Assembly (NCBI RefSeq): GCF_001625195.1
Contig: NC_054390.1
Span: 310,001 to 374,000 of the forward strand
Length of the DNA: 64,000 nucleotides
Origin: Drechmeria coniospora
Taxonomy: Eukaryota > Ascomycota > Sordariomycetes > Hypocreales > Ophiocordycipitaceae
Reading direction: 5' to 3'
Positions 11,040 to 57,683 of the stretch are shown piece after piece; position 1 is the stretch's first letter, and each line of letters starts with the position of its first letter. The notes beneath the pieces are model-generated. The model saw only the letters and a list, made by a program, of their open reading frames with translations, made no database searches and was not told the DNA's origin. A program made the position numbers and the translations under genes.

Positions 11040-11400
11040 GCCCCCACGCGTCACGGCGTTGCTCTCGACGACGCCGAGTATTGGATTCGGACGACCCTGC
11101 ATTGCATGGAGGAAATGAGGTGCGTTGATTGGGGAGATGACTCCTGGTTCGCCTGCAGAGTGTGTACTGACACAACGGCAACTACTACAGAGCAAGATTT
11201 CGGTCGTCGAAAACCAACTACGCAACGCAGCCTAGCCAGCGATATCTTTCACAAACCAATTCTTAATCTTGACGCCATCAGCAATCACCTCCCAGCGGAG
11301 CACGCGGCAGGGGAATATGCGTCGAATGGCTGGATGGTCAGCACTTTGTTGCACTCTATTGCACTCTATTGCACTCTATTGCACTCGTTGCACTCTACTG
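11040..11400. repeat. Degenerate dispersed repeat, copy 2
   Basis: Blocks such as CCTGCAGAGT, ACACAACGGCAAC, AGAGCAA, ATCTTGACG and GGTCAGCACTTTG line up in order with 18598-18825. The end of this copy runs directly into the CACTCTATTG minisatellite, which may have grown from its edge. Confidence 0.55.
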
Positions 11401-11790
11401 CACTCTACTGCACTCTATTGCACTCTATTGCACTCTATTGCATTCATTGCACTCTACTGCACTCGTTGCATTCTACTGCACTCTATTGCACTCGTTGCAC
11501 TCTACTGCACTCGTTACACTCTACTGCACTCTATTGCACTCGTTGCACTCTCCTGCACTCGTTGCATTCTACTGCACTCTATTGCACTCGTTGCACTCTA
11601 CTGCACTCGTTGCACTCTACTGCACTCGTTGCATTCTACTGCACTCTATTGCACTCGTTGCACTCTACTGCACTCGTTGCACTCTACTGCACTCTATTGC
11701 ACTCGATGCACTCTATTGCAATCGTTGCATTCTACTGCACTCTATTGCACTCGTTGCACTCTACTGCACTCTATTGCACTCCGTTTTACT
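11343..11790. repeat. 9/10-bp minisatellite (CACTCTATTG / CACTCGTTG)
   Basis: About 45 units alternate among CACTCTATTG, CACTCTACTG and CACTCGTTG. The mix of 9- and 10-bp units leaves long open frames rich in Leu, His, Ser, Cys and Tyr on the plus strand; these are artefacts of the repeat. Confidence 0.9.
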
Positions 11791-49087: not shown

Positions 49088-49827
49088 GCCGGACGGAACG
49101 ACGGGAGCGGCGACAACGGTCGAGCAGGGATGTGCACTTGTATAATCAGCAACGAACGATGTTCATGCAGTACACGCATGCAGGCGTGCATACGCCCAGA
49201 CAAAGTTGGCTTGTTTTGTTGAGAAGTGGAGAGTTCACGATGGCAGAGTCCACCAGAAAAGCGTGGTGCCCAGGTCGATATCAAGCATGGGTAAGTTATA
49301 ATGATGCGAAGCGTCATAAATCGAATGGGATGGATAACTATTATGCAATACACCACACCATATCCATGTCACTAGCGTGCAATCCGTTATTAATATTACA
49401 CCACGATATATGCTACTACATGCAGCATCTCAAACCCTTTTCTCCGGTAGAAGCATCATGTTGCACTTGACGCCCACCCCAGTACACGTAAATGTACGGC
49501 TACACTTACAGTTCGTGTAGTTACTTGCTAGCGGGTGAGCGGTTACAGAACGACGGCCTGCGAGTTACGGATCAATTGATCAGGGGTGGGCCGGCAATGA
49601 AACCTTATCACTCACAACACCGGCGGACGGCAGTGTGCCGATAGGGATTGGTCGACTGGCGAGTCTTGGATCAGGAAGTGTGACGCCACGGTTGCAGCAC
49701 GCCAACCCTGAAATAAGAAGTCTTGGTGCCTGATCGATAGGTACATGGCGAGAACTCCGTCGATGCTCAGGACATAGCGGTAGGTAGTGGGAAGTTGGGT
49801 TGCTGGCCAGCCTGGGTTCCCCAGAGT

Positions 49828-50165
49828 CCGCATACATGGAACAATGCACACGCTGCTCCGTATTCGCATGTCATGGACACGTCCGCATACATGGAACACT
49901 GCACATGCTGCTCCGTATTTGCATGTCATGGACACGTATATCCGCATACATGGAACACTGCACACGCTGCTCCGTATTTGCATGTCATGGACACGTCCGC
50001 ATACATGGAACACTGCACACGCTGCTCCGTATTTGCATGTCATGGACACGTATATCCGCATACATGGAACACTGCACACGCTGCTCCGTATTCGCATGTC
50101 ATGGACACGTCCGCATACATGGAACACTGCACACGCTGCTCCGTATTTGCATGTCATGGACACGT
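49828..50165. repeat. Higher-order tandem repeat: alternating 55- and 59-bp units
   Basis: CCGCATACATGG begins at 49828, 49883, 49942, 49997, 50056 and 50111, giving spacings of 55, 59, 55, 59 and 55. The longer units carry an extra TATA after GGACACG. So a 114-bp dimer has been amplified about three times. Open frames through it are repeat artefacts. Confidence 0.92.
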
Positions 50166-53100
50166 ATATAATACAATAGAGCAGTCCTTCATACTACTTG
50201 TACTATTGGCAACGTATTACGACATGCAGACTTGCCATCAACCCGGACAGTCGAACAGCAAATTCGAGCTCGATGAAAGTCTGTACAGGCCTCCCTCTTA
50301 GCCGTGTCGATGACTCCTAGTACATGTACTCGTACGAATACAAGCAAGCCAGGCCCGGATAGTACACAAACTCTCGAGCAAGTGTAAATGTACAGTGTAA
50401 TACTCGTGCAGTTGACGTCCCAGGAGTGCTTCCTTCTCGTGAAAGATGCGTACACGTAGGCGTAGCCTCTCGCGTCTGAAAAAATCGGCCACGGCCTTGG
50501 CAAGGTAACAATACCCACATCCTGCCTCGGTACACTCCACCAGTTGGACGGGCCGCATGTCACATAGGTCCGTCTAATCTTACAGGTACTCCATTCTAAG
50601 TAGGAAGGCTGTGTTTTTTTCCGGGTTATCAGCGATGGCTTGTTGGCAAATTAGGTGCACAGTACGGAGTACTCCGGATTACTCAGTCCTATACTTGCTA
50701 CAATACTTACAACTACAGTAGACGACACTTGGTAAACCCAGAGTTGTTGTAGGTCCTTGGTATTTCCCCTTGTTGAATCGTCAAGTCGGGGTCTTGCCCA
50801 TTTCCAACTTCTTGCCTCCTCTCGTGGTACTCATTACTACTCAGGGGCAACGATGTACGAGTTCAGGCAACGTACAAGAATAGTAGTGTGCAAAAATGGC
50901 GTGAACACAACCCCCCGCCGTGGATATCCTATTAGTATTAGGATTGACCCGCCAACCGGGTCCATGGTGGTGACTTGGCCGATCGTTGGAACTCAATGAC
51001 ATGCAGTGCATCGACCATACAGCTAGCGAGAGTTGCTACTTACAACTACTGCACTTGTATTGCTGCAAGTACGGCAAATGAAAGTACGGAGTACTGTACG
51101 TGCACTTGTACGGAGAACACCGTACGCCGTGGCGAGCCTTGACCGGGACACAACACCTAGTACCGAGTTAGCACAGGCATGACTTGGGTATATCACTGTA
51201 TTATATGACGAAATATAATTGCAGAGAGTACAACATATACTTGCAGTAAGTACATGTAAGTACGACGTACTTTGTTGTAGTTACAAGTGCACCTAGTTGC
51301 AAGTACTTACTATACTTTAGTCCGGTTATCTCGTTGCAGGGGGATCGGAGGACCCTCACATTATTGTGCAGATGCACGTACAAGTACTTGGGCTATAATG
51401 GTACTCGTGCTCCGATCTCGTAAATATTGATAGGCTCCCACGTACGGGTACGGTGTCCCCGGGGATGCCGGCTCGGCTCCGTTGTGCCCACCACACACCG
51501 ATTTGTAATTACGTGTTTGTGACCGTACCCCTGCTCCATAAGTAGATGGACAAGCAGTGCGGAGTACCGTTAATAATAATACAAGTACTAATGAGTCACA
51601 ATTACTCCAATCGGGGTACGCCGAACCACAAATCCTCTGCAAAGACAAGTATGGAGCACTTGTATGCACACCACTTGGAAGTAAGTATACAGGACAGGAT
51701 TGTATGGATACACAAACTTACGTAAAAAGTAATACAATAGATGCAAGGCAGGCTATAGAGAAGCACAAATTCAACCACTCGGAGCAGGACATGTGAATGC
51801 ACAACTCACGTCAACGTATCTGCACTCGCACATTCAAAGGGTATTGCAAGCACTCCGTACTCCGTACTCAAGTATACTTGGTAGCAAACCGCAACTGCAT
51901 ATAATTACCGTACGCAGTGCAAGTCGTTGTAAGTAAGCATCTACACAAATACTTGTATATTCCAGCCGATCCGCTCCCAGTAGGTGTATGCCGCTTGTAT
52001 TTTTAAAGTATTACATGCCAATACGAATACGTAGCAGAGTGCCCGGCGCTCCACGTTTTGCCGACTGTAGGGAATGAACCCCGAACCCCCTATCCTGGTG
52101 ACGTGGGCACGCGTGAATTGTGTGGTCGGATGTTGACAGTCATGACCACCTACATGTAATACAACTACAGCGCGGCCACCGACTGAGAGCTAGAAACACG
52201 AGTCTCCAAAATCGAGTCTAGGGAAGATAATAACGGCACAGGGTGCGCCGTCGGAAATGTGCGAAAATTCTGGATACAAGTGCCGTATTCCCCCGTTTCA
52301 TGAACTCCTCGGCGGGGACGGCATGAGCGCTATCGTGCCGCTTGTGGTTTGTGCGTCCCATCACTCCGTATTAATACCCCTTCCTTTCCGCCCGTTGGTA
52401 ATGGATGCTCCACCCCTGTGTCAATTTTTCGAGGGATTTATGCGTTACGCAACCCCGCGTTCACGATACGAGCCGAACGTTGGGACTGCTCGGATCCTAG
52501 CGGGATGATTCCTCGTGGCATTGCTGGAGGACCGACCCTATTCCGGCGTGTCGTGCGTCCATCTATTTGCGGCTACAGTAGTTTGTATCGTATGCACCGT
52601 ACATTTGCATGTGAATAACGGCAGACGTAGCATCACACTCCCATCCTCGTGGTCACCTATTGCCAGCATCTGCAGGTACTGTACTGTGGTTGCAAATATA
52701 TGAATCAGCGCATGGGGTACGCAGTGGGTGTAGACCTTGAGGTGAGTACCTTGCACTCAGGTGTACATGATGGCTATTCAACTCGGATATGGGTGTACAT
52801 TCACATGCACTGTACTCGGTACGGAGTAGACTCTGCTCGCACATCTTGACCTCTGCCACGATGACGGTATGAAAGGGGGGCTCGTGTTCATTGGCAACCC
52901 GCCTGGGTCCGATTGCCTGCCTTGTAGTTTACTCTATGCAGTTTACTCTATGCAACGTATTTCGGCACACAGAAAAACATGTACCCAACTCCCATTGTCC
53001 ATGGAAGTGTAAGAACTTGATTTAGCCTTCTCTCGTGTCACATCTCAAGGTCTCATCCAAATCGATCTGTCTTGCGGACTGTGGTACATCCTTTTCGTAT

Positions 53101-54189: not shown

Positions 54190-54196
54190 TATAAAG
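54190..54196 (+). promoter_or_regulatory. TATA box of the microexon peptide gene
   Basis: TATAAAG lies 148 bp upstream of the ATG at 54338. A C/T-rich tract (about 54280-54335) follows, as is common around fungal transcription starts. Confidence 0.5.
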
Positions 54197-54337
54197 ATGC
54201 TGATATCCCTCTGCTTCCTAAGCACGGGAAAAGTCACGATACTACTTACACCTTGCACGCCTACAGCCATTCCATTCTACCGTCAACGTACTTTTCTTCT
54301 TCTTCCTGGCCGACTGCTACGCTCCTGTCTCGCCGAA

Positions 54338-55191
54338 ATGCAGATTATCGCCTTTACACTTCTAGTCTTGGCCGGCCTTGGCCTCGCCGCGCCTGTTTCC
54401 ACAACGGAGCTGGACAAGGTGAGTAGTATCCGACGATGCCCCCTCCTTCCGGAGAGATTTGCTGTGCTAACATGACTTTTCCCTCAGCGAGTGAGTCTAT
54501 TTCTTCCGCACCGAAGCTTGGTAACACTGCAGTTCACTAACGATACGGTTCTCCAGATGGTGAGTTTCGAAGCAGCACACGCAAACGGCATCTGACGGCT
54601 AATTCGCGCCATTCTAGATTGTAAGTTTCCTTGCCACGCGAGAACGGAGGGGTTGCATGTTCGTCCTGTAGTAACATGAATCTTTGCTATAGTTTGAGGT
54701 AAGATCTCCATGCGCAGCGAGAGATGACCACCCGGACGTTGTACTCACTCGGCTTGACGTCTAGCCGGTAAGTCAACCTCGGCCAACAAGACAAATTAAC
54801 CGTCTTCTTTCTCATGTTGACCGTACACTAGCCTGTAAGTGTCATGTCAAAAATGTCCATCTCCGTCCGCATCAGTGCCGAGCTAATTTTCTACCATGAC
54901 AGATTGTGAGTATTACCTTGACCGCGAATATGAACACGAAGACTGGACAAGACGTTAATCGTCTTTCTAGGATGTAAGCACCTCCCGTTCCGGATGAGAA
55001 AGGCGATTGTGATGGATACTAACGCGTCTTCCGACAATAGCATGTACGTTTCCACGCGTGATGATGCGATTCTAATCGGGTGCAATGCTCTAATTTCAGG
55101 AATGACAACAGTTTGTGAGTTACCGGCCATCAAGTCTTCCCCCCTGGATCCTATGTGCTAATTCGTCTGCCAACGCAAGCCCGAGAACTGA
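54338..55191 (+). CDS. Secreted peptide gene built from ten microexons
   Basis: Exon 1 (54338-54418, 27 codons) encodes a signal peptide (MQIIAFTLLVLAGLGLA) and a short pro-region ending TTELDK. Then come microexons CGA (54488-54490), ATG (54557-54559), ATT (54618-54620), TTTGAG (54693-54698), CCG (54765-54767), CCT (54832-54834), ATT (54903-54905), GAT (54971-54973), CAT (55041-55043) and TTT (55112-55114), and a last exon CCCGAGAACTGA (55180-55191). All introns are phase 0, 58-72 nt long, with GTGAGT, GTAAGT, GTAAGA, GTAAGC or GTACGT donors, CTAAY, TTAAY or TTGAC branch-like motifs, and YAG (last: AAG) acceptors. The full-inclusion product is 40 residues. K27 plus R28 form a Kex2-type KR site, predicting a secreted MIFEPPIDHFPEN. 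Using the earlier acceptor at 55099 would instead end the chain as DHE. Splicing is inferred, not observed. I know of no described family like this in fungi. It is convergent with the UNC93-like gene. Confidence 0.75.
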
Positions 55192-55733: not shown

Positions 55734-57683
55734 TCACGCGTCCAGACGCTTTTCCGGATGCCCCGAGGGCAGGACATCCTGCACCGTCTCGTCGGTGCCC
55801 ATGAGATCCTCCTCGATGGCGACGTGGTCCTTGATCTTGAGGAAGATGACGGGCGAGGCGATGACGATGGAGACGCTCAGCAGGACCCAGTTGCTGATGA
55901 GCTCCGTCATGAAGGGGATCTTGCGGGCGTCGAGGTTGGCCATGATGGCGGCGCCGGCGGACTGGATGCCCTTGTAGAAGCCGACGTAGTTGGCGGAGCG
56001 GCGGCCCGAGTTGGACAGGGCGCCCATGTACCTGGACGGGGTCAGCGGCGGGCGAGGGGACGGCCGGGGGGGTGAGACGCACCAGTAGACGGTGGCCTGC
56101 CAGGCGGCGTCGTAGAGGCCGTAGAGGATGTAGAGGAACATGGGGCCGACGTAGCCGCTGTCCTCCCAGTCGGTGGGCTGGAAGCCGGCGTCGGGGTTGA
56201 CGGACTCGCGCGTGTAGGTCAGCTGGAAGGCGTAGCCGCCGCCCCAGATGGCCATGGTGAGGACGAGGAGGACGACGAGGGAGGCGCGGGCGCGGACGGA
56301 GCGGCGGACGTGCTCGATGTCGAGGACGTAGCCCCAGATCATGGCGGCGACGATCTGGGCGATCCAGTAGAGCAGGCTGTTGAGGGCCTTTGTGCGGGTG
56401 CCGAAGTGGGCGCCGTTGACGTTGTTTTGCTGGTAGACGTAGAACCAGTTGGAGGAGAAGAACATGGGGAAGAGGAAGATGACAAAGGGCTCGAAGCGGA
56501 TGGTCTCGTAGAGGCCCTTGAGCTCGCTCTGCCAGCTCGGGTTCTTCATGAGGACGACGCGCGAGCCGTCGGGGCGGACGACGTCGGAGGCGTCGCAGAG
56601 GAAGAGGGCGAGAAAGGCGCCAAAGGCCATGAGGACGATGAAGCCGATATAGGTGCCGTCGGCGACGGTGACGTTGGCCGTCGTGTGGATGTTTGTTCCG
56701 AGCGGTATCTGGAGGAGCAGGCCGTCGGTCAGCGGCAACTCGGCGGGGAGGGGGGAGGAGGGAGGAGGGGGATGGGGGTGACGGTACCAGACTGCCGATG
56801 ACGGCGCCCATGTTGAAGATGGCCCAGAACCAGGCAAAGTAGCGTCCCTTTTGGCGCTCGTTGGGGTAGGAGATCATGATGGTGCCCTGGGCGGTCCAGA
56901 GCAGGCCGGCGCAGAGACCGAGGAGGACGCCGGCAAAGATGTTGAAGGCCGGGACGTAGTGGTGGACGGAGACGAGGAGGCTGATGGCGTAGATGCAGTA
57001 GCCGACACCGCCAAAGGAGAGGGTCCACTTGACGCCGAGCTTGTTGACAAAGGTGCCGCCGAAGAAGCCGAAGACGGCAAAGGTGCTGTAGAGGGCCGTG
57101 TTCTAGCAGGTCAAGCTCGCGTCAGCAGAGGTAACGGCAGGCAAGCAGGCAAGCAGGCAAGCAAGCAGGCAAGCAAGCAGGCAAGCAGGCAAGCAGGCAA
57201 GCAGGCAAGCAGGCAAGCAGGCAAGCAGGCAAGCAGGCAAGCAGGCAAGCAGGCAAGCAGGCAAGCAGGCAAGCAGGCAAGCAGGCAAGCAGGCAAGCAG
57301 GCAAGCAGGCAAGCAGGCAAGCAGGCAAGCAGGCAAGCAGGCAAGAAAGCAGGCAAGGGAGCTTGTCGTACCATGTTGTTGGCGAGCGTCGCGTCGGCCT
57401 TTCCGCCGCCGCCCAAGCCGCCGAGGGCGTTGAACATGCCGGGGCAGAGGAAGCAGACAAAGGCGACCATGCCGAGCTGGGCCTTGGGCGAGGCGTACCA
57501 GGGCAGGGTGTAGCCAAAGAGGCGACGCTGCCGGTACCGCCAGCCGGGCGGCAGGGTGAAGTCGACGTCGGTGCCGTCATCGTGGTGGCGCGGCAGGTCG
57601 GGCGAGTCGGAGGTGTCGACGGGCGTGTCGGCGGCGGCCGTCGGCGGCGACTGCGAGGCCGCCAGCGTCTCCTTTTCCGACAT
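55734..57683 (-). CDS. UNC93-like MFS transporter with minisatellite-filled intron
   Basis: Exons 57683-57372, 57102-56788, 56708-56083 and 56031-55734 give 516 residues in about 11-12 TM helices. The pattern matches fungal UNC93-like (DUF895) major-facilitator proteins: YTLPWYASPKAQLGMVAFVCFLCPGMFNALGGLGGGG, NTALYSTFAVFGFFGG, GYCIYAISLL, GLLWTAQGTIMISYP, KGRYFAWFWAIFNMGAVIGSL, and VYWYMGALSNSGRRSANYVGFYKGIQSAGAAIM near the C-terminus, with an acidic cytosolic tail. Introns 2 (79 nt) and 3 (51 nt) are ordinary. Intron 1 is 269 nt because an 8-bp repeat fills about 220 nt of it. Substrate unknown; fungal members are annotated mainly as putative transporters. The gene is convergent with the microexon peptide gene. 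Confidence 0.9.
57138..57357. repeat. 8-bp minisatellite inside intron 1 of the UNC93-like gene
   Basis: About 27 copies of GGCAAGCA (CCTGCTTG on the sense strand), with three slightly altered units at the left end and GCAAGAAAGCAG at the right. It lies between the donor at 57371 and the branch/acceptor at about 57103-57123, leaving both signals intact. Confidence 0.95.

Follow-up and report, generated by a model that had tools for sequence, protein, structure and literature searches.

The 64-kb stretch of DNA analyzed here (the window) belongs to contig C2 of Drechmeria coniospora, a fungal pathogen of nematodes that is used with C. elegans (excerpt of PMC4859500). It carries, on the + strand at 54338-55191, a predicted gene (the window gene) of 12 exons and 11 introns that runs from an ATG at 54338 to a TGA ending at 55191. 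The sequence-only reading had proposed that a signal-peptide exon is followed here by ten AG-NNN-GT units, one of them with six bases in the middle, separated by introns of 58-72 nt, and each of these elements was found where it had been placed. The unit structure, the splice signals and the open frame of the window gene can be read directly from the DNA.

Exon 1 (54338-54418; 81 nt, 27 codons) encodes a signal peptide and a short pro-region, MQIIAFTLLVLAGLGLAAPVSTTELDK; this signal peptide, like those of the six large genes described below, was judged by eye. Intron 1 (54419-54487, 69 nt) has the form GTGAGT...CTAAC...CAG and is followed by exon 2 (54488-54490), a lone CGA, whose Arg completes a Lys-Arg (Kex2-like) site. 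Intron 2 (54491-54556, 66 nt) leads to exon 3 (54557-54559; ATG, Met), intron 3 (54560-54617, 58 nt) to exon 4 (54618-54620; ATT, Ile), and intron 4 (54621-54692, 72 nt) to exon 5 (54693-54698; TTTGAG, Phe-Glu), the sole 6-nt exon. The series continues with intron 5 (54699-54764, 66 nt), exon 6 (54765-54767; CCG, Pro), intron 6 (54768-54831, 64 nt), exon 7 (54832-54834; CCT, Pro), intron 7 (54835-54902, 68 nt), exon 8 (54903-54905; ATT, Ile), intron 8 (54906-54970, 65 nt), exon 9 (54971-54973; GAT, Asp), intron 9 (54974-55040, 67 nt), and exon 10 (55041-55043; CAT, His). Intron 10 (55044-55111, 68 nt) contains a rival, nearer acceptor, TTTCAG, ending at 55099, use of which would add GAA-TGA and hence an immediate stop. 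Beyond it lie exon 11 (55112-55114; TTT, Phe), intron 11 (55115-55179, 65 nt, with an AAG end), and exon 12 (55180-55191), which reads CCC GAG AAC TGA (Pro-Glu-Asn-stop). Nine of the ten internal microexons are 3 nt and one is 6 nt long, and, as had been claimed, all 11 junctions are in phase 0.

All 11 introns start with GT and end with AG. Their donors are consensus-like throughout (GTGAGT five times, GTAAGT three times, and GTAAGA, GTAAGC, and GTACGT once each), and a scan detected a branch-like motif in ten of them, with 12-18 nt from its A to the intron end, which bears out the earlier description of the splice signals. Intron 4 had no scan-detected branch motif; TAACA was picked out there by eye.

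The spliced frame is uninterrupted from ATG to TGA and encodes a predicted secreted precursor of 41 aa, MQIIAFTLLVLAGLGLAAPVSTTELDKRMIFEPPIDHFPEN, in which the Lys-Arg site precedes MIFEPPIDHFPEN. The dibasic pair is split across a junction, Lys being the end of exon 1 and Arg the whole of exon 2, so that skipping of the Arg exon would delete the likely cleavage site. Kex2-processed fungal (pheromone-like) precursors consist of a signal peptide, a short pro-region, Lys-Arg, and a short C-terminal peptide. The spliced translation likewise has a signal peptide (by eye) and a dibasic site ahead of the mature peptide; it differs from such precursors in having a single peptide copy, no homologue found, and 12 exons. 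A TATA-like element, TATAAAGA, at 54190-54197 (+), 148 nt upstream of the start codon, is a putative promoter element. An in-frame ATG at 54197 would extend the precursor by 47 residues and was picked by our frame-aware model; we retained 54338 as the start because the upstream ATG overlaps the TATA-like element.

A bare rule (AG, 3 or 6 nt, GTRNG, with units 52-83 nt apart) yielded a chain of 10 units at the window gene and a chain of 2 on the other strand of the window. When the window gene was masked, the longest chain on the same strand was 2, and 200 block-shuffled windows gave no chain longer than 5. A splice-site chain model was run with a flat prior on exon length. Its donor and acceptor matrices were learned solely from loci other than the window gene; three matrix positions were relaxed and the branch-site term was set by hand after the window gene was known. 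It returned exactly the 11 window-gene introns at a score of 79.7, and none of 300 dinucleotide shuffles of the region scored above 20.9. The training units had been picked by regular expression, so the consensus is partly given by construction; exon length was free in the flat-prior run, and the control sequence for the chain model was the 64-kb window alone.

Repeats also occur elsewhere in the window. The runner-up tile of the chain model (46.7) falls in a tandem repeat at 11.3-11.8 kb (11341-11781; 19/29/48 bp), which mimics a splice-site chain and lacks any 3-nt exon; it was rejected as a second splice chain. A 55/114-bp tandem repeat (92-98% match) occupies 49826-50169, about 4 kb upstream of the window gene. 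An 8-bp repeat, GCAGGCAA, is present in 26 copies (98% match) at 57137-57345, within a stretch that seemingly encodes a UNC93-like transporter on the minus strand (family assigned by eye).

No homologue of the 41-aa precursor was found in the protein collection, in a search that reaches only sequences sharing several 5-residue words, and searches of its own genome at the DNA and protein levels revealed no further copy of the window gene. A homologue search with a neighboring protein of the window returned one match, 100% identical over 70% of the query. The introns of the window gene have no interior 8-mers in common, and no origin by unit duplication is visible there. Since its introns show no mutual kinship, the window gene may be older than, or of separate origin from, the large-gene arrays described below. 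With no relatives found, the coding case for it rests on its splice signals, its open frame, and the presence of the large genes in the same genome.

Large genes of the same architecture

The genome (28 contigs, 32.83 Mb) was searched with patterns that detect only 3-nt exons with good splice signals. A pattern of branch site, acceptor, three bases, and donor produced 219 matches genome-wide (52 + 167), compared with 27 (15 + 12) for its reversed control. With a stricter pattern, 48 of 50 matches fell in seven genes (control 0 + 2): one in the window gene, three in a gene at C2:2964420-2975199 (+ strand; gene A), and 44 in a tandem cluster at C2:4297154-4379394 (- strand; genes B1-B5), all on the same contig. 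Two further patterns put 32 of 50 and 8 of 19 matches in the same seven genes; the remaining 18 and 11 were scattered singly, at about control level (21 and 13). Regular-expression units with a 3-nt exon numbered 96 and 491 in the two large-gene regions, where each other exon length from 0 to 12 nt yielded 0-11 and 4-40 units, respectively. The distance from the branch A to the exon in array units was most often 18 nt. A search for first exons recovered five of the six large genes (B1 was missing), and the promoter plus exon 1 of B4, used as a query, matched only B4, B5, and A.

Genes B1-B5 are spaced roughly 17-21 kb apart in an AT-rich stretch. The models of the six large genes are 10.7-13.9 kb each, encode 272-480 aa, and are 90-93% intron, the median intron of B1-B5 being 65-66 nt; they are least certain at their 3' ends and, in B3, throughout. 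In these frame-aware models, which forbid in-frame stops by design, 827 of 962 exons are exactly 3 nt long (A, 131; B1, 142; B2, 138; B3, 152; B4, 138; B5, 126), and 768 of the 827 are in phase 0. Among the 956 junctions, 869 are in phase 0, 60 in phase 2 (47 of them in B3), and 27 in phase 1. As modeled, the longest uninterrupted runs of single-codon exons comprise 91 exons in B2, 90 in A, and 30-56 in the others. The length of internal exons is a multiple of 3 in 146-177 of 148-185 cases per gene.

Several landmarks recur in all six genes. Each has one TATAA[AG] 126-135 nt upstream of its ATG and a first exon of 90-96 nt that encodes a signal peptide by eye. In 6/6 models, corresponding places are taken by an exon of 9 nt and, further along, by one of 39 nt that encodes a (V/I)(I/V)P(L/F)..L block. 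The exceptional gene is B3 (C2:4331644-4345507, - strand), the middle part of which is out of phase, with 41 of its 152 3-nt exons in phase 2; in the unframed run, B3 had 126 3-nt exons and no stops. The shift may be either a model error or the mark of a disrupted copy.

The large proteins matched no known family: the best Pfam E value was 0.049 (one member), NCBIfam and PADLOC returned nothing, and the best PDB E value was 5.2. In the protein collection, none of 4787 candidates qualified as a homologue at an E value of up to 1. As modeled, the large genes appear to encode paralogous orphan secreted proteins. Cluster01087 of D. coniospora consists of six adjacent orphan paralogs, g2506-g2511, two of which are named spore-specific (excerpt of PMC4859500), and may be the same as the tandem cluster of single-codon-exon genes.

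In the window gene and in the six models alike, a signal-peptide exon leads into a series of 3-nt exons separated by short GT-AG introns. By architecture, and with no sequence kinship, the window gene and its six giant counterparts form a proposed class of single-codon-exon array genes. The claim of a secreted-peptide gene built mainly of single-codon exons is thereby strengthened, since six far larger genes of the same design pass the coding tests described next.

Coding character and evolution of the arrays

In the DNA of the large genes only, stops are avoided, codons wobble synonymously, junctions are shared, and units have been duplicated locally. Stop statistics were taken from regular-expression units and unframed chains. 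Stop triplets made up 2 of 587 regular-expression units, both TAA. In flat-prior unframed chains, 664 exons were 3 nt long, whereas the lengths ranking next occurred 16 times each, and none of the 664 triplets was a stop (22.6 expected from their own positional composition, P = 1.1e-10). At 12 control offsets within the same units, 33-114 of 825 triplets (4-14%) were stops. The triplets of the large genes also have a higher G+C content (0.463) than intron interiors (0.354).

Column analysis covered the 111 columns with at least five phase-0 single-codon exons, a choice that drops much of B3. The amino acid was invariant in 13 of the 111, and in these 13 the third-position pairwise difference was 0.275; conditioning on identical residues fixes most of codon positions 1 and 2 by definition. 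Synonymous wobble at invariant columns included TGC/TGT, GGA/GGG, GAA/GAG, and Leu as CTA/CTT/TTG. Four cysteine columns were invariant among the large genes with a single-codon exon there. Junctions were shared to a high degree between paralogs, from 118 in common between B1 and B2 (118 and 119 junctions) down to 73 (of 78 and 112) in a pair involving B3. Because of stop avoidance, synonymous wobble, and shared junctions, we conclude that the single-codon exons are very probably real.

Nucleotide identity was compared in five of the 15 paralog pairs, using columns in blocks with local identity of at least 0.55. Over these pairs, identity was 0.925-0.974 at acceptors, 0.854-0.910 at donors, and 0.634-0.767 in intron interiors. 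Single-codon exons (0.549-0.740) were about as diverged as intron interiors: exon and interior values were 0.740 and 0.767 for B4-B5, 0.691 and 0.732 for B1-B2, 0.645 and 0.634 for B3-B4, 0.644 and 0.653 for B3-B5, and 0.549 and 0.634 for B2-B3. Residue identity of the large proteins over single-codon positions was 24-56%. Codon differences, summed over 15 non-independent pairs, were spread almost evenly over positions 1, 2, and 3 (682, 618, and 730), and dN/dS was 0.49-0.99 in 14 of 15 pairs and undefined in one, so constraint on most large-gene residues is weak. Single-base codon differences were synonymous in 153 of 461 cases, compared with 124 expected without selection (the pairs are not independent). 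The combination of conserved splice sites and diverged exons suggests that splicing is preserved together with a core of residues, whereas the majority of residues drift or diversify. A preserved core amid drifting or diversifying residues is usual in proteins at the host interface.

Traces of array growth are visible in several of the large genes. Exons 7-10 of B1 (C2:4378708-4378921, - strand) are four nearly identical consecutive units with a period of 61 nt, encoding Thr-Ala-Ala-Thr, evidently the product of recent tandem duplication, by which codons were gained. Elsewhere in B1 a block of three units recurs four units downstream, and exon blocks are also repeated in the 3' portions of B3 (four-fold) and B5. 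In a unit-pair comparison that kept only pairs above its similarity cut, neighboring introns were on average slightly more alike than distant ones, most clearly in B1, B3, and A, and hardly in B2; MAFFT unit alignments of overlapping or neighboring pairs were misregistered and were therefore excluded. To judge from these repeats, unit duplication does happen in the large genes. It may also have built the whole arrays, and the uniform 3-nt length and phase 0 are better explained by unit duplication than by independent insertions of introns between codons.

A 22-nt intron-end consensus, with up to three mismatches allowed, had 10 of its 12 genome matches in the large loci (control 0). No arrays were present in the sequence around either of the stray matches, at C2:9894836 and C3:1708423. 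An apparently ordinary gene on the - strand at C2:9893501-9896000 contains a predicted exon of 6 nt, TTACCA; of the two short introns that flank it, one ends three mismatches from the intron consensus of the large genes.

Proposed mechanism, alternatives, and related systems

We regard it as highly likely that 54338-55191 is a real nuclear coding gene of the large-gene class, spliced at 11 introns to give a 41-aa secreted precursor and a 13-residue Kex2-released peptide, with splicing by a ratchet and array growth by unit duplication. In this scheme, the pre-mRNA would be spliced at the 11 short GT-AG introns, and a Kex2-type protease would release the 13-residue peptide after Lys-Arg. Splicing would proceed by intron definition, to which introns of about 65 nt are suited, and would work in ratchet fashion: only 3 nt separate every acceptor from the next donor, and introns would be removed one after another, with one codon gained per step. 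Factors cannot occupy both sides of a 3-nt exon simultaneously, so stepwise, intron-by-intron removal is the simplest model. Tandem duplication of an intron-plus-codon unit would account for at least part of the growth of the arrays in the giant genes, and in our proposal this is why most units have 3-nt exons in phase 0. Transcription, the order of the ratchet, Kex2 cleavage, and a role at the host interface are parts of the scheme that we infer.

On a broader reading our judgment is evenly divided: that this fungus invented a codon-by-codon gene by tandemly duplicating a ratchet-spliced intron-plus-codon unit of about 68 nt, and so made fast-evolving secreted orphans, each with more than 100 single-codon exons, and in addition a small peptide gene. 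In that case the intron would be what multiplies and the codon its cargo, a new protein arising via intron duplication.

Skipping of single-codon cassette exons in many combinations, by which one locus would secrete a mixture of peptides, is an alternative that we consider unlikely. In the window gene, all ten internal exons are in phase 0 and have lengths divisible by 3, and the earlier claim that any pattern of skipping keeps the frame is correct; moreover, with 126-152 single-codon exons, skipping of 1% per exon would by simple arithmetic make most large-gene transcripts differ. Against such a library, intron interiors are more diverged than splice sites in the five of 15 large-paralog pairs compared, junctions coincide between large paralogs, and four cysteine columns are invariant, which together suggest that the large genes include their exons faithfully and yield one main product. 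In the schistosome gene MEG-8.2, the nearest parallel that has been studied, skipping was found in 1 of 10 cDNA clones (excerpt of PMC12998952). It is less probable still that the window locus is now silent and retains the introns of a once-working gene. The failure to find any relative of the window gene would suit such decay, but decay would be expected to damage some of the 22 splice sites, and the 11 introns all keep consensus-like donors and AG acceptors in an open frame.

A non-coding origin of the pattern fares worse. Diverged minisatellites of 60-70 bp, with a monomer that happens to contain AG-3 nt-GT and with meaningless triplets, would account for the fairly even spacing, for the near identity of some adjoining units, and for the confinement of most matches to the 22-nt intron 3' consensus (10/12) to the large loci. 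They would not be expected to avoid stops completely in 664 triplets when other triplets of the same units are stops in 4-14% of cases, to differ in G+C between triplets and intron interiors, or to show synonymous wobble at invariant residues; nor would they begin with a signal-peptide exon or carry 9-nt and 39-nt exceptions at corresponding places in six models. For the large genes the satellite reading is already strongly opposed by these sequence features, and overall we consider it very improbable. Finally, the brevity and frequency of AG-NNN-GT might suggest that splice-like motifs have lined up by accident in the window. The chain at the window gene has 10 units, however, where the 200 shuffled windows never exceeded 5 and the remainder of the real window reached 2, and its chain-model score is 79.7, the highest of 300 shuffles being 20.9; this reading is effectively excluded.

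No report of genes built of single-codon exons was found in the open-access literature searched (most subscription papers and bioRxiv preprints lie outside it), in agreement with the earlier statement that no fungal gene of such a kind was known. Stwintrons and introner-like elements resemble the present genes as unusual intron arrangements or multiplied introns in fungi. Introners are near-identical introns dispersed over many genes. Here, each of the 11 window-gene introns has its own complete donor and acceptor, which sets them apart from stwintrons, and the intron consensus is concentrated in the large loci rather than dispersed as in an introner family.

Very short exons are known in filamentous ascomycetes: isolated microexons occur in Xlr2 of Trichoderma virens (excerpt of PMC11121469), and the lipS genes of Dactylellina haptotyla have two exons that are already as short as 3 nt (excerpt of PMC5639578). 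As described there, these are one or two microexons in otherwise ordinary genes, unlike the arrays reported here. Closer in design are the schistosome microexon genes (MEGs), which encode secreted host-interface proteins of a parasite and have coding regions made mostly of tiny exons. MEG microexons are typically 6-36 bp, and MEG-8.2 has 17 exons of which 15 are micro-exons of 12-33 bp (excerpt of PMC12998952). The frame-keeping of MEG exons is found in all ten internal exons of the window gene; the size range is not, as 9 of its 10 microexons, and 827 of 962 exons in the large models (126-152 per gene), are 3 nt, in a fungus rather than a fluke. The aphid bicycle genes are likewise rapidly evolving putative effectors with many small exons. 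They average about 17 exons, with internal exons almost all in phase 2, and megacycle has more than 100 microexons for about 2000 aa, so up to about 20 aa per exon (excerpt of PMC9168663). The present genes have mainly one residue per exon and are mainly in phase 0 (all junctions of the window gene, 869 of 956 in the large models). Recursive splicing at ratchet points also sets an acceptor against a fresh donor and proceeds stepwise (excerpt of PMC8605326); ratchet points are found in long introns, and no exon results from them, whereas one codon would be gained per step here, between introns of about 65 nt.

Exons of 3 nt escape standard aligners, so single-codon-exon genes are easily missed by normal annotation, and further such genes may be hidden in published genomes. 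If RNA data confirm the models, these would be the most finely divided protein-coding genes met in our searches, with up to 91 consecutive modeled one-codon exons. They would bear on the smallest exon that the spliceosome can use repeatedly and on intron versus exon definition, on the origin of introns and of new proteins, and on the reasons for the repeated emergence of microexon-built secreted proteins in parasites of both animals and plants.
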